Assembly (NCBI GenBank): GCA_903939765.1
Contig: CAJAIK010000004.1
Location: forward strand, 1-40,907
From: an uncultured Chlorobiaceae bacterium
Lineage (GTDB): Bacteria; Bacteroidota; Chlorobiia; Chlorobiales; Chlorobiaceae
Length of the DNA: 40,907 nt
Direction of reading: 5' to 3'
Positions 9,222 through 19,589 of this stretch are shown here, piece after piece. The position numbers and the translations under genes were made by a program. The notes beneath the pieces are model-generated. The model saw nothing but the letters and a program-made list of their open reading frames with translations, was not told the DNA's origin and searched no databases. Numbering within the stretch: position 1 is the stretch's first letter; each line of letters opens with the position of its first letter.

Positions 9222-9527
9222 TTATTCTGGTAGCCGGTATAATTCAATATTTTCACCTTCACTTTCGATTGCCTTCACCCATTGCGGTTTAGGGCCTCTG
9301 CCTACCCAGTATTCAGTCTCACTCTTTCTGTACTTGATGGGAGACGGGGTTCTCTGTCCAGCTTTAACGGCCTTTCCCTTTTTTTCAAGCTCCTCTGCAG
9401 AAATATTATAGGTGGTCATCTTTACCTTGATATCATCAATGACTGCTCTGCGCTCTACGTTGATGATTTCCTGAGCCTGCTTCTGAAGCTCGGCTATCTG
9501 GGTCTGGATTTCTGTAAGTGTTGACAT
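9222..9527 (-). CDS. H-NS family nucleoid-associated protein
   Basis: A 101-residue protein with the two-part plan of H-NS. The N-terminal half is a coiled-coil oligomerisation region (heptad-like LTEIQTQIAELQKQAQEIIN). The C-terminal half is a DNA-binding domain around SETEYWVGRGPKPQWVKA, a variant of the W-x-G-RGR-x-P-W-L core in which RGR reads RGP. H-NS proteins bind curved AT-rich DNA and silence acquired genes. The family is best known in Proteobacteria, so its presence here is noteworthy. The gene is monocistronic with its own terminator. Its upstream region on this strand is AT-rich and 417 bp long. The call rests on the C-terminal motif. Confidence 0.85.
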   Translation of the reverse strand: MSTLTEIQTQIAELQKQAQEIINVERRAVIDDIKVKMTTYNISAEELEKKGKAVKAGQRTPSPIKYRKSETEYWVGRGPKPQWVKAIESEGENIELYRLPE

Positions 9528-10819: not shown

Positions 10820-12127
10820 TTAATGGTAGGGATAGAAAAGATAGAAGGTAAAAGAGAGTCCGGCAAGAATCCACATACCGCTGCGCACCTCCCGCACCCT
10901 TCCGGTAAAGAGTTTCAGGAGAACATAGGCAATAAACCCGGCAGTTATGCCGACGCCGATATTAAAGGTAAAGATCATGAGGGCAATGGTCAGAAAGGCA
11001 GGGAGGAGCTCACTGTAGTCGGTGAAATCCATCCTGGTGACTGATTGGAGCATGAACATGCCGACAACAACGAGTGCCGGCCCGTAGGCGAAGGGCGGAA
11101 CAATGGTCAGCACTGGTGAAAAAAAGAGGGCAAGCCCAAAGAGTGCCGCCACAACAAGCGCCGTCAATCCGCTCTTTCCGCCCTGCTCAATACCGGCGGC
11201 GGACTCAATATAGACACCCGCCGTAGTGGTTCCGAAGAGTGACGCGGCGATGGTTGAGAGTGCATCGACCAGCATCGGTTTTTCAATTTCTGGCAGGTTA
11301 TCCTGTTCATCAAGCAGGTTGGCTCTTGAAGACAAGCCGAAAAGGGTGCCCATGGTATCAACAAAATCCATCACCAGCACACTGATGATGACGCTGGCAA
11401 ATCCCCAGGTCAGCGCCCCCTGCAGGTCAATTTTCATAAAGATCGGCTCGATGGAGGGCGGCATACTGAAAGCCGTTGCAGGAAGGGGGATAAGGCCGGT
11501 CAAAAGAAAGGCGGCCGTCGTGACGGCCATACCGGCAAGAATTGCGCCGGTTACCCGCTGGATGAGAAGGACAGCCGTAAGGAGCAGACCGCCAAGGCTC
11601 AACAGTACCGGGAGTTGTGCAATATTGCCCAGTTGTACCGGTGCACCGGGCACACCGAGCGTCACAACGCCCATCTCGCAGAGGCCGAGAAAGGCCAGAA
11701 AGAGCCCGATTCCTCCCGAAAAGCTGTGCTTGAGCGAAGAGGGAATCGCCTCAGCCAGCCATTGGCGCAGCCCCCCGATGGTGATCAGGGTGAAAAGCAC
11801 ACCGCCGATAAAAATGGCCGCCATGGCCGTCTGCCAAGAGTAGCCGAGCGTCTGCACTACCGTATAGGCAATAAAGGCATTTTCGCCCATGTAAGGTGCA
11901 ACGGCAAAAGGGCGTTTGGCATAAAGCCCCATCAAAAGCGTCCCAAAGATGGAAGTAAGGATGGTCGCCGTCATTGAGGCCCCTTTGGGAATACCCGCCG
12001 CAGCAAGGATGGCCGGGTTGACAATAATAATATAAGAGAGCGTAAAGAAGGTGGTGATGCCAGCAATTATTTCCTGCCGGTAACTGGTACCGTGCCGGTC
12101 AAACTCGAAGTATGAGCGCACTGTCAT
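10820..12127 (-). CDS. NCS2 family (AzgA/PbuG-like) purine permease
   Basis: A 435-residue integral membrane transporter with about 12-14 hydrophobic segments. Family landmarks include the N-terminal RQEIIAGITTFFTLSYIIIV, the NPAILAAAGIP segment, and FVDTMGTLFGL with the following acidic stretch, the last typical of the guanine/hypoxanthine/adenine branch of nucleobase:cation symporters. It probably brings in a nucleobase with protons. It is the first gene of a two-gene unit with the nitrilase-like enzyme. The 244-bp upstream gap has no recognisable purine riboswitch. The exact base transported cannot be told from sequence. Confidence 0.9.
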   Translation of the reverse strand: MTVRSYFEFDRHGTSYRQEIIAGITTFFTLSYIIIVNPAILAAAGIPKGASMTATILTSIFGTLLMGLYAKRPFAVAPYMGENAFIAYTVVQTLGYSWQTAMAAIFIGGVLFTLITIGGLRQWLAEAIPSSLKHSFSGGIGLFLAFLGLCEMGVVTLGVPGAPVQLGNIAQLPVLLSLGGLLLTAVLLIQRVTGAILAGMAVTTAAFLLTGLIPLPATAFSMPPSIEPIFMKIDLQGALTWGFASVIISVLVMDFVDTMGTLFGLSSRANLLDEQDNLPEIEKPMLVDALSTIAASLFGTTTAGVYIESAAGIEQGGKSGLTALVVAALFGLALFFSPVLTIVPPFAYGPALVVVGMFMLQSVTRMDFTDYSELLPAFLTIALMIFTFNIGVGITAGFIAYVLLKLFTGRVREVRSGMWILAGLSFTFYLFYPYH

Positions 12128-12371
12128 GGTCGGATATCGTTTTATAGCGGGAAGCGGGTTTTATAAGCGCAAGATACATATAAAGCGTGAAAACGGCGAG
12201 GCGTAAACGGTTAAAATGGATTGGGGATCATTGATGAAAAACTTGTTTAGTAATAGCAATGGGTTACGTTTTTCTTTGCGGTAATTTTATTGTTACTTTT
12301 CCTGAGGTTTATCCATTTCTGAGTGGGGGCAAATCGCCGGGATTATCGTGAACTATTCATAAAGAGTATTC

Positions 12372-12983
12372 ATGGAGATAATTGATTTCAAGAAGGAGTT
12401 GAAGCATCTTTATCTCGCTTCTGCCAAAGAAGTTATTGGGGTTGATGTTCCTTCCATGAATTTCCTGATGGTAGATGGTGAGGGCGATCCCAATACCTCT
12501 CAAGCCTATGCTGAGGCAATTGAAGCACTGTTTGCCCTCTCCTATACCGTGAAGTTCATGGTCAAGAAAGGGGAGCTTTCAATTGATTATAGTGTTATGC
12601 CCCTTGAAGGGCTCTGGTGGGCAGATGATATGACCAGGTTTTCACCTGACGACAAATCAAACTGGAAGTGGACGGCAATGATTATGCAGCCCTCGTTTAT
12701 CACTCCTGACCTTATTGAACGTGCCTTTGCTGACGTGAAAAAGAAAAAGAATCCGGCGGCCATATCAAGGGTGCGGTTTGCATCATGGTGTGAAGGGGAG
12801 TGCGCACAAATCATGCATATCGGGCCGTTTTCCGAAGAGGGTCCGACGATTGAGCGGCTTCACCGCTTCATTGAAGCCAGCAACCGGCAGCGAATGGGCA
12901 AGCATCACGAAATTTACCTGAGCGACATCCGCAAAGCCGATCCCAAAAAATGGAAAACCATTATCCGGCAGCCGATGCTGTGA
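12372..12983 (+). CDS. GyrI-like small-molecule-binding domain protein
   Basis: A 203-residue cytoplasmic protein whose features fit the GyrI-like/SOUL-type fold used in AraC/MerR effector domains, here without a DNA-binding domain (COG4832-type). Landmarks are VDVPSMNFLMVDGEGDPNTS near the N-terminus, PLEGLWWADD in the middle, and AQIMHIGPFSEEGPTIERLH followed by HHEIYLSD near the end. Such stand-alone proteins bind or hydrolyse small hydrophobic compounds; the function here is not known. It is on the same strand as the NACHT gene but 271 bp upstream, so co-transcription is uncertain. Confidence 0.8.
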   Translation: MEIIDFKKELKHLYLASAKEVIGVDVPSMNFLMVDGEGDPNTSQAYAEAIEALFALSYTVKFMVKKGELSIDYSVMPLEGLWWADDMTRFSPDDKSNWKWTAMIMQPSFITPDLIERAFADVKKKKNPAAISRVRFASWCEGECAQIMHIGPFSEEGPTIERLHRFIEASNRQRMGKHHEIYLSDIRKADPKKWKTIIRQPML

Positions 12984-13254
12984 TGGCGACCACTTTGCAC
13001 CTCGTATTACATTGAAAAATTCTTTGCAGTCGATTCAGTCAAGCCGTTAATCCGCTGATTATGGCAATAAGGATGTTGTTGCTGCGTGATTAGTCGTTAT
13101 TTTATTCTGGAAAATAGCTGTTAATGGGGGTTGCTTTCGGGATGTTTTTTTTCTTAAAACGGTATTACCTTTTTTTCAAATCAAGATGCTCCCTCTGTGT
13201 GAAAATGAGTAGTCGAAATCGGCATTATGAACTCTTTACTTAAATACTGACCCT

Positions 13255-16200
13255 GTGCAAATACTGTCAACGATCAAACTTCTCGCTTCCACGAAAAACG
13301 CCTCTGGTGATTTATTCACGCGACTTGTCAACGACCTTTTCTTTGCACTTGGATATGACGATTTGAGATTGAATGTACACAAGTCCGGTCGAGAGGTGGA
13401 TATTCATGGAACGCACCGTATGGAGCCACGTTGCATGGTTGCCGAGTGCAAAGCCCATTCGGACAAGATTGGCGGGGACGATCTTAACAAGTTTTTTGGA
13501 GTGCTTGAACGTGAAAGAGATAGGCAGAATCCAACACAAGTGGCAGGCTATTTCGTTTCACTCAGCGGTTTTCGGGAAACAGGGAAGGAGCAGGAGCTTG
13601 AAACCAGCCAGCAGAAGCGCGTTATTCTGATCGACGGGAAACAGGTGATTGAGGAACTGCAACGGTGTCGAGCATTAGTGGATCAAACAGAGGCCATTGA
13701 AAAGGCAGGCCATTGTGCGGAGTATGCCGGTTTAAAGGAGGCTGTGCTCGATGGCGTTGAGCTTTTCGGTCACGATATGGGCTACTTGTGGGCTGTGTTC
13801 TACTCGGAAGGAAAAGTGCGAAGGTATTTTGCTTTGATTCATGCCGACGGAACACCATTGGCGGAATCCGCAGCTTCTCTGGTAATCAAGGCAGATCGCA
13901 CTTGTAAAGGGTCGTTGCATCGTTTGCACTACCTTGCTCCACCTCCTCCTGTGCCTGACCGGGAGGCGCTTCGTAAGGCGGTATCCAAACGGTATTGCCA
14001 GTGGATCAGTGAGGAGTGCGGATATATTCAACTTGATGGGCTGCCTGCGGATACAGACCTCAGCGCTGCGCGTATGAGGCTGGAGAGACTGTTTGTTCCG
14101 CTGAATATCGTGACGAAAGCGAAGAAGAGCGGCAAGAAGAGCGACGATGGGTCAGAATTGACGGAGTCAGTGGGCAAATTTATCTGCTCACACCAACATG
14201 CAGCAATATTGGCTTCTCCGGGTGGCGGAAAAAGCACTTTGCTTAAGCGGGTGGCCATAGCCTATGCCGCCCCTGAACGCTTAACAGAAGTTGACGATAA
14301 TCTTCCGGAACGTGAGTGGATTCCCTTGTTTCTTCGTTGCCGGGAACTCAGGGATCGTGCCCATCGACCAATTTTGGAGTTGCTTGATGATCTCTCTCGG
14401 CACGTGGGGTTGAGTACAGAGGAGGCTGCGGCTTTCCATGAACGACTTCATGAGCTCCTGCGTTCGGGGAAAGCATTGCTTCTCGTTGATGGACTTGATG
14501 AGATTTCCGATGAGGGTGGGAGGCAGACCTTTGCCCAGCACTTACGGACATTTGTTGCCATGTTTCCTCATGTTACCCTGCTGGTAACCTCGCGTGAGGC
14601 TGGCTTTCGGCATGTGGCTGGTGTGGTCGCCAGTGTCTGTGACCAAGCGCGGCTGGCGCCTTTCTCCAAAGAGGATGTAGGGCGCCTCTGTGAGCGTTGG
14701 CATGTCGAGGTCGTGGGTGACAATGACCAAGTCCGGTCAGATGCCCGGTTGTTGGCCGACACAATCTGGAACAACGAGCGCATTCGCGCTTTGGCGGAGA
14801 ATCCATTGATGTTGACCACTATTCTTGTTGTTCGACGCTGCATCGGGGATTTGCCGAGTCGTCGGGTTGAACTCTACCATGAGGCAGTGCGTGTGCTTAT
14901 CCGAACATGGAATACTGAGGGTTTTGCGCCGATGGATCTTGAAGAAACCAAGACACAACTCTCTTACGTTGCCTGCACCATGATGGCCGAGGGTATACAA
15001 CAGATTGGACAGAAAGCTCTTCTCAGGTTGCTTCAGCAGGCCAGAAGCGAGTTGGAGGCAGAGCTCCAGTTTATTCGTATCAGTCCGGAGGAATTTGTCC
15101 GCCGTATCGAGTATCGCAGCAGCCTTCTGATGCAGACTGGCCACGAGCGCATTAACGGAGAGTTGCAACCGGTATACGAATTTCGGCATTTGACGTTTCA
15201 GGAGTACCTTGCTGCCCGTGGTTTTGTTGAAGAACAGTATCCCGGCCGCGATGGAGGTCAAAGCCTGGCGGATTTACTGGCGCAACATTTTGATGATGAA
15301 CGATGGCGCGAAGTTATTCCGCTTGCGGTAGTCATGGCTGGGCGCAGAGCAGAGGAAACGGTCAAGCGATTAATTCGGGTTGCTGAGGATTATCCTGAAA
15401 CGAAGATGCCTCCGGGTATTCTTCCGCCTCCTGCGGCGCTCCTCATGCAGTGTCTGCTTGACGAGGTACAGGTGACCCCGGCCACATTGCGAGTTGCATT
15501 GCTTTGTTTGGGAAAGCAAGATGGGCTTCGTGATTGTTCGGATTTATTGCGCGGTAAGTTTGGTGAGCTATTCATGCAGTTAATGAACGACGCATACTTT
15601 GGAGCCGGTGAGAATTGGGATGAGTATGTTTCTGCTCAAATGCGTATTGCCGTTTATCTCTATTTGACAGATTATGAACCCGAAAAACCTTCAGACGCGT
15701 TGATCGATTCACTGGTGGAAGTTCTGAAGAGTGGGGGGCGAATTGAAACGGCTCGTGCGGCTCTGGCATCAACGCATTTAGCTTTTAGAAGACGGCCACC
15801 ACTGTTGCATATAATTGAAAACATAACGGAAGATTCTCGTTATCAGCCACTTTATGAGTCGTTATTACCATTGGTTTATTGTGATGATCCCCATCTTTCA
15901 ATGCCAGCAACCTGGGCACTTGCGTGGATTGGTGCAAATGGTTTATGGAGACCAAAACCCTCTCAAGAGTTACTGCTTTTTCTTTATCGTATCTGGCGTG
16001 AAGCAGCCTCTCGCGAGCAGTCTCGTTTCGCTGGCTGGGCGTTCTCTGTCCAGCCGCTGTTTCCTCGGGAAACATTCAGCCCTGATCTTTGGGGTGACTG
16101 CGATCCCTTTCTTCAGGAAATCGCATCAAAAAAAGACGTAGATAGCTTAGGTGCGCTTATCGTGGGATGGTATCGGCACGCACCATGGGACGATAGAACT

Positions 16201-16323
16201 ATAGCGAACCTCATTAAGGAGGACTGGGCTAACAGAAAATCAAGCTTTAGGCATCGTGAACTGCTTGTCGCTCTCGGTGATGCAGGAAAGGAAGTTCTTG
16301 CAACTTTGGATGATAATAAATAA
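13255..16323 (+). CDS. Restriction-endonuclease-like/NACHT NTPase fusion (bacterial NLR-like, probable antiphage protein)
   Basis: A 1022-residue protein with three parts. Residues about 15-135 look like a PD-(D/E)XK nuclease: SGREVDIHG with Asp49, then VAECK with Glu64 and Lys66, and a downstream FFGVLERER helix. Residues about 310-660 are a NACHT-type STAND ATPase: Walker A ASPGGGKST (320-328), extended Walker B ALLLVDGLDEI (407-417), sensor VTSREAG (444-450), the ENPLMLTTI winged-helix motif (515-523) and FRHLTFQEYLAAR (643-655). The C-terminal 360 residues are helical and unassigned, a likely sensor. Known bacterial NACHT proteins sense phage and trigger an N-terminal effector; here DNA cleavage is the inferred effector. 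The only in-frame start is the GTG at 13255, with no clear Shine-Dalgarno sequence. A toxin-antitoxin pair follows 313 bp downstream. Confidence 0.88.
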   Translation: MQILSTIKLLASTKNASGDLFTRLVNDLFFALGYDDLRLNVHKSGREVDIHGTHRMEPRCMVAECKAHSDKIGGDDLNKFFGVLERERDRQNPTQVAGYFVSLSGFRETGKEQELETSQQKRVILIDGKQVIEELQRCRALVDQTEAIEKAGHCAEYAGLKEAVLDGVELFGHDMGYLWAVFYSEGKVRRYFALIHADGTPLAESAASLVIKADRTCKGSLHRLHYLAPPPPVPDREALRKAVSKRYCQWISEECGYIQLDGLPADTDLSAARMRLERLFVPLNIVTKAKKSGKKSDDGSELTESVGKFICSHQHAAILASPGGGKSTLLKRVAIAYAAPERLTEVDDNLPEREWIPLFLRCRELRDRAHRPILELLDDLSRHVGLSTEEAAAFHERLHELLRSGKALLLVDGLDEISDEGGRQTFAQHLRTFVAMFPHVTLLVTSREAGFRHVAGVVASVCDQARLAPFSKEDVGRLCERWHVEVVGDNDQVRSDARLLADTIWNNERIRALAENPLMLTTILVVRRCIGDLPSRRVELYHEAVRVLIRTWNTEGFAPMDLEETKTQLSYVACTMMAEGIQQIGQKALLRLLQQARSELEAELQFIRISPEEFVRRIEYRSSLLMQTGHERINGELQPVYEFRHLTFQEYLAARGFVEEQYPGRDGGQSLADLLAQHFDDERWREVIPLAVVMAGRRAEETVKRLIRVAEDYPETKMPPGILPPPAALLMQCLLDEVQVTPATLRVALLCLGKQDGLRDCSDLLRGKFGELFMQLMNDAYFGAGENWDEYVSAQMRIAVYLYLTDYEPEKPSDALIDSLVEVLKSGGRIETARAALASTHLAFRRRPPLLHIIENITEDSRYQPLYESLLPLVYCDDPHLSMPATWALAWIGANGLWRPKPSQELLLFLYRIWREAASREQSRFAGWAFSVQPLFPRETFSPDLWGDCDPFLQEIASKKDVDSLGALIVGWYRHAPWDDRTIANLIKEDWANRKSSFRHRELLVALGDAGKEVLATLDDNK

Positions 16324-16636
16324 CTCCTGTTCTTGAAATTGCGGAGCATTCAAACAAGGCTGACGATTTGAATTCAATCATTTCAAAGCATTCCCCTGCT
16401 GCCATATCTGACTAACTTTAGCGGCATGGATTGTGCCTCGTGTGGTTCATTTTGCTGGTTTGCTTCAATTATCCGTACCTTTACTGTAATTTAGTTCCGG
16501 GCAAGAACAGAAGAGGTTTAACAAGCCTTGTTGACCTCTGTTTCGTTGAAGGGCTTGATCGGCTCGGTCACCATTTTCCGAATCAGCCATCAGGAGCAAA
16601 AATAAAGTTGTTTTATCGTCTTTACCGGAGAGCATT
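16324..16636. other. 313-bp gap between the NACHT gene and the toxin-antitoxin pair
   Basis: No gene, RNA or terminator was recognised here. The one structured element is an imperfect inverted repeat at 16512-16539, listed separately. A GGAGAG Shine-Dalgarno sequence lies at the right edge, just before the antitoxin ATG. Confidence 0.5.
16512..16539. promoter_or_regulatory. Imperfect inverted repeat upstream of the antitoxin gene
   Basis: AGAGGTTTAACAA and TTGTTGACCTCT face each other around GCC, pairing over 11 positions with one bulge and one mismatch, about 98 bases before the antitoxin start. It is a candidate operator for the toxin-antitoxin complex, or a stem in the leader RNA. Confidence 0.4.
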
Positions 16637-16846
16637 ATGACTGTCATCGAACAACTAAAACAAGAAGCAGAAAACCTTTCGGAGCCATTGGCTCAAGAGG
16701 TATTGGATTTTTTGTTGTTTTTACGCACGCGGCGTGCAAAGGCGTGGCCTCCGGCTTTTTTTGAGCACACTGCGGGAGCATGGCAAGGAGAGCCGCTTGA
16801 ACGATCTCCACAAGGAGAACAGGAAGAACGTTTGGAATTGGAATAA
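16637..16846 (+). CDS. Antitoxin of a VapBC-type pair (DUF2281-like)
   Basis: A 69-residue protein. The N-terminal half (IEQLKQEAENLSEPLAQEVL, then DFLLFLRTRR) is a helical segment of the DUF2281/VapB-like type. The C-terminal half (WPPAFFEHTAGAWQGEPL) is the toxin-wrapping tail seen in this antitoxin group. The stop codon overlaps the toxin start by one base (TAATG), the usual coupling of such pairs. A GGAGAG ribosome site precedes the ATG. It would bind the PIN toxin and probably its own promoter. Confidence 0.82.
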   Translation: MTVIEQLKQEAENLSEPLAQEVLDFLLFLRTRRAKAWPPAFFEHTAGAWQGEPLERSPQGEQEERLELE

Positions 16847-17244
16847 TGTGGCTACCCGACACTAACGTCTGGATTCGTTATTTGAATCCTCAATTATCTC
16901 CGGTGAAAGCCTGTTTCTTGCGGTATCCTGCCGACCAGATATTTCTGTGTGATGTTGTGAAAGCGGAACTGTTCTACGGCGCATTCAAGAGTACGCGCCG
17001 TGACAAAAATCTGGCTCTGCTTGACGAATTGAGTAATGGTTTTTTATCACTTCCATTTGATGGTAATACAGCCCACCACTTTGGTCGAATCCGCGCTGAT
17101 CTTGCCAGGGCTGGGAACCCGATTGGCCCTTATGATCTTCAGATTGCAGCCATTGCTTTAAGCCACTCTTTAACGTTGGTAACACACAATACAAGAGAGT
17201 TTTCGAGAGTGGACGGCTTGCATCTTGAAGACTGGGAAACGTAA
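16846..17244 (+). CDS. vapC: PIN-domain ribonuclease toxin (VapC-like)
   Basis: A 132-residue PIN-domain protein. Acidic residues expected to hold the metal are visible: Asp5 in LPDTNVWIRYL, Glu near 41 in VVKAELFYGA, and an Asp near 97 in NPIGPYDLQIAAIA. The C-terminal motif VTHNTREFSRVDGLHLEDW is the standard end of this toxin group. VapC toxins cut tRNA or rRNA to stop translation until the antitoxin is restored. It is translationally coupled to the antitoxin and lies downstream of the NACHT gene. Confidence 0.9.
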   Translation: MWLPDTNVWIRYLNPQLSPVKACFLRYPADQIFLCDVVKAELFYGAFKSTRRDKNLALLDELSNGFLSLPFDGNTAHHFGRIRADLARAGNPIGPYDLQIAAIALSHSLTLVTHNTREFSRVDGLHLEDWET

Positions 17245-17295
17245 CCCTCGCGCAAACAGTTCGGCAACTATCTCTGTCGCAACCGTGTTATTTTG

Positions 17296-17324
17296 TTGCA
17301 AGAGGTCATGAAAAATATTATAAT
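17296..17324 (+). promoter_or_regulatory. Near-consensus housekeeping promoter of the peroxiredoxin gene
   Basis: TTGCAA (17296-17301) and a perfect TATAAT (17319-17324) are separated by exactly 17 bases, 63 bases before the peroxiredoxin ATG. This is the best sigma-70-type promoter seen in the window and predicts strong constitutive expression. Confidence 0.7.
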
Positions 17325-17387
17325 GGACAAAATTAATCCAGGTTTTGTTCTTTACTCATAACCATAACCCAAAAAAAAGAAAATATC

Positions 17388-17978
17388 ATGAGTGTACTCG
17401 TCGGCCGCAAGGCGCCGGATTTTGATGTCGCAGCCGTTGTCAATGGCTCGCAGTTTATGGACTCAATAAAGCTTTCTGTTTACAAGGGCAAGTATGTGGT
17501 GCTCTTCTTTTATCCGCTTGATTTTACCTTTGTCTGTCCTACAGAGTTGCACGCCTTTCAGGAGAAGCTTCAGGAGTTCCGTGACAGGAATGTAGAGCTG
17601 ATTGGCTGTTCGGTCGATTCCAAGTTTTCCCATTTTGCCTGGCTTAACACTCCGAGAGCCCAGGGTGGTATCAAGGGCGTTACCTATACACTGCTTTCAG
17701 ATATCAACAAGAGCGTAGCTGCCGATTATGATGTGCTGCTTGAGGGCGCGGGGATTGCACTCAGAGGGCTCTTTCTGATCGACAAGGAGGGTGTTGTACA
17801 GCACCAGGTAGTCAACAATCTTCCTCTTGGCCGTAACATTGATGAGGTGCTCCGTCTGGTTGATGCGTTACAGTTTACCGAAGAGCATGGTGAGGTTTGC
17901 CCGGCAAACTGGAACAAGGGTGATAAAACGATGGCACCAACGCAAGAGGGTTTGGTAGAGTTTTTCGAGGAGACCTGA
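17388..17978 (+). CDS. Typical 2-Cys peroxiredoxin (AhpC/TSA family)
   Basis: A 196-residue thiol peroxidase that reduces hydrogen peroxide and organic peroxides. The peroxidatic cysteine is Cys50 in PLDFTFVCPTE and the resolving cysteine is Cys171 in HGEVCPANW. The C-terminal extension ends FFEET, which with the GGIKG loop resembles peroxide-sensitive typical 2-Cys enzymes. Oxidant defence matters for an anaerobic phototroph exposed to oxygen. No AhpF or thioredoxin reductase gene is adjacent, so the electron donor is encoded elsewhere. The gene is monocistronic with a strong promoter. Confidence 0.95.
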   Translation: MSVLVGRKAPDFDVAAVVNGSQFMDSIKLSVYKGKYVVLFFYPLDFTFVCPTELHAFQEKLQEFRDRNVELIGCSVDSKFSHFAWLNTPRAQGGIKGVTYTLLSDINKSVAADYDVLLEGAGIALRGLFLIDKEGVVQHQVVNNLPLGRNIDEVLRLVDALQFTEEHGEVCPANWNKGDKTMAPTQEGLVEFFEET

Positions 17979-18103
17979 AAACTGTTTTCATGATATGGCT
18001 GTCAGTTTGTTTCTTTGGAGCCTGAAGCCATTGCGTGAGTGGATATTGTTGATGATAGAAGCAGCTTGTTCATTGTTTATTGACAGCTTCAAAGTAAGCC
18101 GAT

Positions 18104-18133
18104 TCCCCTGCCTCTTTTTAAAAGGGCAGGGGA
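18104..18133 (-). terminator. GC-rich hairpin downstream of proS
   Basis: TCCCCTGCC (18104-18112) and GGCAGGGGA (18125-18133) form a perfect 9-bp stem around a 12-base loop. It lies 11 bases beyond the proS stop. No T-run follows on either strand, so it may stabilise the 3' end rather than act as a classic intrinsic terminator. Confidence 0.5.
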
Positions 18134-18143
18134 GCCGCCTTGC

Positions 18144-19589
18144 TTAGTACGCTTTGGCAAACACAACCTTGCTTGCAGCCGGTTTTCCTGAGTAGATACA
18201 GGTGCCCGGTTCGTCAATGCGGTATTGTGCTATATAGTCGGCCTCCTGGGGGAGTACCCTGATGGTGGCTTTGGTTTCCGCCTTGATTTTCGCTTCAGTT
18301 TCTGCCGTGCCGTCCCAGTGGGCGATAACAAATCCCTTTTCAACAGCCACTTTGAACTCCTCATAACTCTGCACTTCGAAAGTGTGCTCAGTACGGAACA
18401 GAAGCGCACGCTCGAACATGCTTTGCTGGATGGTGTTCAGAATTTCACTGATGCGCTGCGGCAGGGTTTCGTCAAGCGCCAGTTCAGTTTTTTCGAGTGT
18501 GTCGCGCCGTGCGGCAATGCAGATGCCGTTTTCGATATCCCGTGGACCAAGTTCGATACGGACAGGAATACCCTGCAGCTCATATTCGGCAAATTTCCAT
18601 CCGGGGGAGTTCTGTTCGCTGCTGTCAACAAAAGCCGCTACGCCGCGTTTGTTGAGTTCGTGGGCTATGGCATTGGCTCGTTCAATGACTGCGGCCTTGT
18701 CGCCCCTGAGAATAGGGATGATGACCACCTGGCGTGTGGCAAGTTTTGGCGGAAGCACCAGACCACGGTCGTCCGAGTGGGCCATGATCAAGGCGCCGAT
18801 AAGCCTTGTTGAGACGCCCCAGCTTGTTGCCCAGACATAGTCAAGTTTCCCCTCTTTGGTCTGGAACTGGCATTCGAAGGCTTTGGCAAAATTCTGGCCG
18901 AGGTTGTGGGAGGTTCCGGCCTGGAGCGCTTTGCTGTCTTGCATCATCGCCTCAATGCACCAGGTATCAACCGCACCGGCAAATTTTTCGTTGTCGGTTT
19001 TCTTGCCCATGATGACCGGCATTGCCATGTACTCTTCCGCAAAGGTTTTGTAGACATTGATCATGCGGAGCACCTCTTCCTGCGACTCCTCCGGGTTGGC
19101 ATGGGCGGTATGACCCTCCTGCCAGAGAAACTCGGTGGTTCTGAGGAAGAGACGGGTTCTCATCTCCCAGCGTACGACGTTGGCCCACTGGTTGATCAAA
19201 ATCGGCAGGTCGCGGTATGACTGTATCCACTTTTTGTAGGATGACCAGATGATGGTCTCCGATGTCGGGCGTATATAGAGCTTTTCAGCCAGCTCTTCGC
19301 CTCCTCCGTGGGTGACCACGGCACATTCAGGGGCAAATCCTTCGATATGTTCAGCCTCTTTTGCGATGAAGCTTTCGGGAATAAAGAGCGGGAAGTAGGC
19401 GTTGACATGGCCGGTCTCCTTGAACATGCGGTCGAGGGCGGACTGCATTTTTTCCCATATTGCATAGCCGTTTGGCCGTATGACCATACATCCCCTGACA
19501 TCGGCATAGTCGGCCAGTTTAGCTGATCGTACAAGGTCAATATACCACTGGGAGTAATCCTCGCTTCTTGAAGTTATTTTATCTGCCAC
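18144..19589 (-). CDS. proS: Prolyl-tRNA synthetase, archaeal/eukaryotic-type (short form)
   Basis: A class II aminoacyl-tRNA synthetase of 481 residues that charges tRNA-Pro in the cytoplasm. It begins [20 protein letters not shown], has motif 2 in [20 protein letters not shown] with EGHTAHA, and motif 3 in [20 protein letters not shown]. It lacks the editing insertion of the long bacterial form and ends in Tyr (VVFAKAY), as archaeal-type ProS does. An anticodon-binding domain occupies about residues 285-385. The start is a GTG at 19587-19589. It is monocistronic, 57 bp downstream of the DUF4412-like gene on the same strand. Confidence 0.95.

Follow-up and report, generated by a model that had tools for sequence, protein, structure and literature searches.

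The closest described systems are bNACHT25 and bNACHT32 (clade 6), proven anti-phage PD-(D/E)XK-NACHT proteins with which DNA is degraded upon infection. Their PD-(D/E)XK residue D48 is required for both defence and DNA degradation, and the D48A substitution abolishes defence (PMC12169576). A fusion of an Mrr restriction endonuclease to NACHT (gi:68548712) was named in passing in one passage of a 2007 paper (PMC1913061), and the section on P4 satellite hotspots of E. coli in another study describes STAND NTPases carrying Mrr_cat, SIR2, or TIR effectors (PMC9122126). The Mrr-NACHT class is already known, and nuclease-NACHT defence is proven in bNACHT25/bNACHT32; the novelty that the original prediction had attached to the combination of nuclease and NACHT does not hold, given the earlier cases in these three papers.

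The window analyzed here, a 40,907-nt stretch of DNA from an uncultured Chlorobiaceae bacterium, encodes a protein of this kind (Mrr-NACHT gene, 13255..16323, plus strand; 1022 residues, GTG start). As predicted, the DNA comes from a green sulfur bacterium, the window genome and Chlorobium ferrooxidans belonging to one genus. Likened by description, the window protein resembles bNACHT25/bNACHT32 in being a single protein with an N-terminal PD-(D/E)XK domain, a central NACHT module, and a C-terminal sensor (putative here), and the active-site Asp occupies nearly the same position (D48 in bNACHT25/bNACHT32 and D49 in the window protein). bNACHT25/bNACHT32 reportedly have an NCH1 domain at the C-terminus, whereas no C-terminal domain of the window protein was recognised with Pfam, and they are also said to depend on DnaJ. 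Again by description, gi:68548712 and the window protein both place an Mrr domain on a NACHT ATPase. Going by the section on P4 hotspots, the STAND proteins there share with the window protein an Mrr_cat or SIR2 effector, carriage as mobile-element cargo, and exchange between Mrr and SIR2, although they come from E. coli satellites and the section does not name NACHT as their NTPase clade.

Domain architecture of the Mrr-NACHT protein

All features of the gene lie on the plus strand. The N-terminus contains an Mrr_cat PD-(D/E)XK nuclease domain (residues 15–133, 13297..13653; Pfam PF04471, E 2.6e-9), which scored 37.6 bits against a curated cut-off of 21. Within this match, the predicted catalytic residues Asp49 (13399..13401) and Glu64-Cys65-Lys66 (ExK; 13444..13452) were found at the originally predicted residues and were invariant in an alignment of six intact homologues, which were 41–88% identical and represent two families of bacteria as well as two viral contigs. 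A scan for the ExK pattern also returned a candidate elsewhere (L085), which was rejected because it lies within a phage gene but in a different reading frame and matches by chance.

Between the Mrr domain and the NACHT module lies a conserved block that had been overlooked in the original prediction (residues 136–245, 13660..13989). This block is present in every Mrr member, had no Pfam match, and was modelled as a helix, three strands, and a helix. The pre-NACHT linker that follows (residues 246–315, 13990..14199; ECGYIQLDGLPAD...LERLFVPL) is common to the SIR2-NACHT relatives described below, with similarity starting from residue 247. The NACHT NTPase domain (residues 322–483, 14218..14703; Pfam PF05729, E 3.7e-12) scored 46.8 bits against a curated cut-off of 26.7. 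The Walker A (residues 320–328, 14212..14238) and Walker B (residues 407–417, ALLLVDGLDEI, 14473..14505) motifs, both correctly located beforehand, were invariant in the six homologues, Walker B lying inside the NACHT match. Walker A reads A320-S-P-G-G-G-K326-S-T328, the first P-loop Gly being replaced by Ala in 6/6 homologues. The NACHT module continues into a conserved arm of helices (residues 484–690, 14704..15324), which includes the likewise invariant FRHLTFQE.

The remaining residues 691–1022 (15325..16320) constitute a putative sensor that is predicted to be all-helical, is fast evolving, and had no Pfam match even at E 10. This region spans ~332 residues, fewer than the ~360 unassigned C-terminal residues first claimed. 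Within the libraries searched, every part of the protein has a known counterpart except the middle block and the C-terminal region. A PADLOC scan of the window protein gave only weak matches to PDC-S60, PDC-S02, and mad8 (best E 1.8e-4), and no Rfam family was found within 12000–18200. The profile E-values, the full-length homologues in other species, and purifying selection exclude a chance origin.

Structural prediction

Residues 1–250 were modelled with AlphaFold2 from four sequences, with a mean pLDDT of 56 and values of only ~37–63 in the Mrr domain. The model, of moderate confidence, showed an alpha-beta-beta-beta-alpha-beta core with D49 in the second strand (47–51) and E64/K66 in the third (62–68). 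This PD-(D/E)XK topology agreed with the nuclease fold first proposed for the N-terminus, as did the nearest solved structures, namely AF1548 (Z 7.4), EndoMS/NucS (Z 7.1), and AspBHI (Z 6.5), followed by MspJI. Most of the top structural neighbours were REase-fold or PD-(D/E)XK proteins, with Foldseek E-values of 0.01 or worse. RPB5 chains were also among the neighbours, and the RPB5 N-terminal domain resembles the PD-(D/E)XK fold. The N-terminus of Avs4 (AVAST type 4) was a further neighbour when aligned with the model (Z 5.9); the window protein is like Avs4 in combining a nuclease-fold N-terminus with a STAND switch and a C-terminal sensor (putative here), albeit in 1022 residues versus the 1,534 of the solved Avs4 chain. 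These middling Z values support, without proving, the PD-(D/E)XK assignment made from the sequence. Given the low pLDDT of the Mrr domain and the weak Foldseek E-values, the fold call comes mainly from the Pfam profile and the active-site residues.

The middle block (136–245) returned few matches in the structural search, and a REase-like nature of this block would be a guess from the order of its modelled structural elements. A full-length AlphaFold2 model from three sequences (mean pLDDT 41.9) was used for secondary structure only and indicated, with low confidence, that the C-terminus is helical throughout. PDB sequence searches gave no match to the N-terminus, and the viral structure library gave nothing below E 0.001. 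A ryanodine-receptor match from the PDB sequences at residues 784–848 (E 0.006) was discarded; it fell in the least conserved part of the protein and was gone when the family profile was used.

Homologues and evolutionary rates

The orthologue in Chlorobium ferrooxidans shows 88% identity along the entire protein, has an ATG start at the equivalent place, and is located as in the window, with a GyrI-like gene on one side and a peroxiredoxin gene on the other. Two further Chlorobium genomes carry copies with ~43% identity, one of them with an internal stop, and the gene was present in 4 of the 86 Chlorobiaceae genomes. Outside the Chlorobiaceae, it was found in one Bacteroidota family (2/204 genomes, one copy intact and the other frameshifted), and intact copies were present on two IMG/VR viral contigs. 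The protein of genome G429 also matches Mrr_cat (PF04471, 35.4 bits). The two decayed copies, L023 10007–13087 (G031; internal TAG) and L021 5967–9280 (G141; broken by frameshifts), point to turnover of the Mrr-NACHT family.

Comparison of the window gene with that of C. ferrooxidans gave dN/dS values of 0.08 for the Mrr domain, 0.09 for the NACHT domain, and 0.08 for the arm. The ratio was 0.10 over residues 2–690 versus 0.63 over residues 691–1022 (Fisher p 3.5e-13), and the independent pair G035/G031 showed the same split at residue 690, with 0.06 versus 0.28 (p 2e-19). The effector and the switch are under purifying selection, and the fast-changing C-terminus is, as far as sequence can indicate, what would be expected of a sensor. 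Positive selection at residues 771–870 was not significant (dN/dS 1.76, p 0.20).

A one-gene cassette at a variable locus

The congener G054 lacks exactly 13191–16320 of the window, and its flanks meet at 13190|16321 without a gap or any visible target duplication. The stretch missing in G054 defines a one-gene cassette (13191..16320, plus strand) consisting of the 64 bp upstream of the start and the coding region up to the stop codon. This difference may reflect either an insertion in the window genome or a precise loss in G054. Nucleotide identity to C. ferrooxidans was 82–94% over 13201–16400 versus 68–81% just outside, and dS between the two was 0.34 for the cassette gene, below the values of 1.0 to 2.5 for the flanking genes. 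The lower dS of the gene and the identity plateau suggest that the exchange of the cassette probably postdates the divergence of its flanks.

Another congener, G052, carries at the same locus between the GyrI-like and peroxiredoxin genes a candidate defence pair, PDC-M07A/PDC-M07B (PADLOC, E 1.8e-199 and 1.5e-64, respectively; L073 2164–3492 and 3456–3977), and the site therefore looks like a defence hotspot. At this locus, G054 carries nothing but vapBC, and a gap of ~170 bp is seen in several genomes. Among 30 peroxiredoxin loci (1.5 kb on each side), the NACHT gene was found only in the window and in C. ferrooxidans, and no phage genes flank these two intact Chlorobium copies.

Directly downstream of the Mrr-NACHT gene, the window encodes a DUF2281-type antitoxin (16637–16846) and a PIN-domain VapC toxin (16846–17244). 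VapBC was rejected as a partner, as C. ferrooxidans carries the NACHT gene but lacks vapC, and in G054 vapBC is present and the NACHT gene absent. Elsewhere in the window, a small protein whose DNA-binding domain is of the H-NS C-terminal type (9222–9527, minus strand; PF00816, E 4.3e-9) is a possible silencer of acquired genes. In G035, an AbiE-type toxin–antitoxin pair (L022 4546–6392) lies ~2 kb upstream of the Mrr-NACHT gene.

Carriage by prophages and exchange of effectors

The copy on viral contig L078 is flanked on one side by a phage-type repressor and on the other by a tyrosine integrase, and a tail tape-measure gene follows 3.5 kb further on. On viral contig L020, the adjoining gene encodes a related integrase, and a repressor is located at a distance of 2.6 kb. 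The G429 copy lies near an integrase of the type found on these contigs, and relatives near integrases were found in two Bacteroidota genomes and on the two viral contigs. No conserved partner gene was common to all the neighbourhoods inspected, which makes a single-protein system most likely.

The NACHT core is shared, from residue 247 and with 35–37% identity, by proteins that carry a SIR2 effector where the window protein has its Mrr nuclease. In the NACHT tree, the SIR2-NACHT and Mrr-NACHT proteins formed one clade (support 100/100) apart from the other included NACHT proteins of the genome; the tree was midpoint-rooted, and the exchange between Mrr and SIR2 could run either way. The SIR2-NACHT proteins are encoded on an IMG/VR contig (L082 5068–8484) and on the Agrobacterium plasmid pAt2788a (L013 5542–8397), the latter adjoining an IS3 element and an mcrC gene. 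The same kind of effector also occurs on another STAND switch, in a fusion of Mrr_cat to an nSTAND1-type NTPase on a Chryseobacterium oryzae plasmid (L077 3995–6655).

Other NACHT proteins of the genome

The genome also contains a diversity-generating retroelement (DGR), with a template repeat beside a reverse transcriptase (C97:3836–4477). Five NACHT proteins encoded at dispersed sites have variable tails that match the template, and 69 of the 73 mismatches fall on template adenines. The DGR repeats are located at L027 391–480 and 4885–4974, L025 1425–1514, L028 268–357 and 3675–3764, and L029 5249–5338 (contigs C97, C113, C87, and C96). A DGR-diversified class of NACHT proteins has been described (PMC10907252). 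The window protein is unlike these NACHT-CLec sensors in having no template-copied C-terminal variable tail: the DGR-type tail ...CSSR...GFRVIRSS, present in other NACHT proteins from this genome, is missing from it. Contig C87 also encodes a metallophosphoesterase-like N-terminus fused to NACHT (L030 2509–5991, minus strand), with a reverse transcriptase at C87:43979–44518; this fusion resembles the validated defence system DS-8 (PMC13092281).

Proposed function

We propose, with a probability of roughly three in four, that the gene encodes a single-protein, NLR-like anti-phage system of bacteria that is built from a nuclease, a NACHT switch, and a sensor. The course outlined here is drawn by analogy with bNACHT25/bNACHT32, in which a PD-(D/E)XK domain on NACHT brings about infection-triggered DNA degradation. 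At rest, the NACHT switch would keep the Mrr-type nuclease inactive. Once the helical C-terminal region (691–1022) met a trigger made or altered in infection, the NACHT module would exchange nucleotide and oligomerise. Oligomerisation would gather the N-terminal PD-(D/E)XK domains, leading to the cutting of phage DNA, host DNA, or both, which would halt phage production, probably at a cost to the cell. The gene itself would travel as a self-sufficient cassette among bacteria and prophages. In the reading first offered for this gene, the nuclease-NACHT-sensor arrangement is supported by the domain profiles, the conserved active-site residues, the modelled topology, the rate split, and carriage by prophages and at a defence locus, while switching, oligomerisation, DNA cutting, the trigger, and protection against phage are inferred.

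More tentatively, the protein may belong to an undescribed lineage of mobile NACHT receptors. In such a lineage, the C-terminus would recognise the trigger directly, residues 136–245 would form a second, non-catalytic REase-like domain that aids DNA loading or nuclease gating, and Mrr and SIR2 effectors would be freely swapped by prophages.

It is unlikely that the same mechanism has been selected chiefly for competition among prophages and mobile elements, through superinfection exclusion or element maintenance, with the chromosomal Chlorobium copies as captured relics. Such a history would fit the copies near integrases on two viral contigs and in two Bacteroidota genomes, as well as the frameshifted copy and the copy with an internal stop. 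However, both Chlorobium copies at the peroxiredoxin locus are intact and free of flanking phage genes, and their dN/dS near 0.1 over the catalytic parts argues for selection on the chromosome.

Slightly less probable again is a type IV restriction enzyme without an infection sensor, whose NTPase would drive or gate the cleavage of modified foreign DNA in a McrBC- or Mrr-like manner. Although the nuclease domain belongs to the Mrr_cat family and the structural neighbours include the modification-dependent MspJI and AspBHI, neither Mrr_N nor SRA nor any other type IV DNA-recognition domain was found in the window protein (Pfam, E 1). In addition, the NTPase belongs with the NACHT/STAND switches rather than with McrB or helicase motors, the helical C-terminus is the fastest-evolving part, and the replacement of the nuclease by SIR2 on the same core suits a switch used in signalling, not a motor for restriction. 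Many STAND proteins act as regulators, but a stress or development regulator with a NACHT switch, unrelated to phage, is highly improbable in view of the nuclease effector, the patchy presence (4/86 Chlorobiaceae genomes), the prophage carriage, and the other predicted defence genes that the locus holds elsewhere.

The anti-phage reading places a predicted immune receptor of the nuclease-NACHT type among the anaerobic green sulfur bacteria. To the known class, the present analysis adds a discrete cassette, a predicted defence pair at the same locus in another congener, relatives near integrases and on viral contigs, the rate split, and the exchange between Mrr and SIR2. With its exact empty site, its relatives in prophages, and a putative sensor that has been mapped and evolves fast, the clean one-gene cassette is a convenient, self-contained system, suited to asking what the sensors of bacterial NLRs recognise and how their effectors get swapped.
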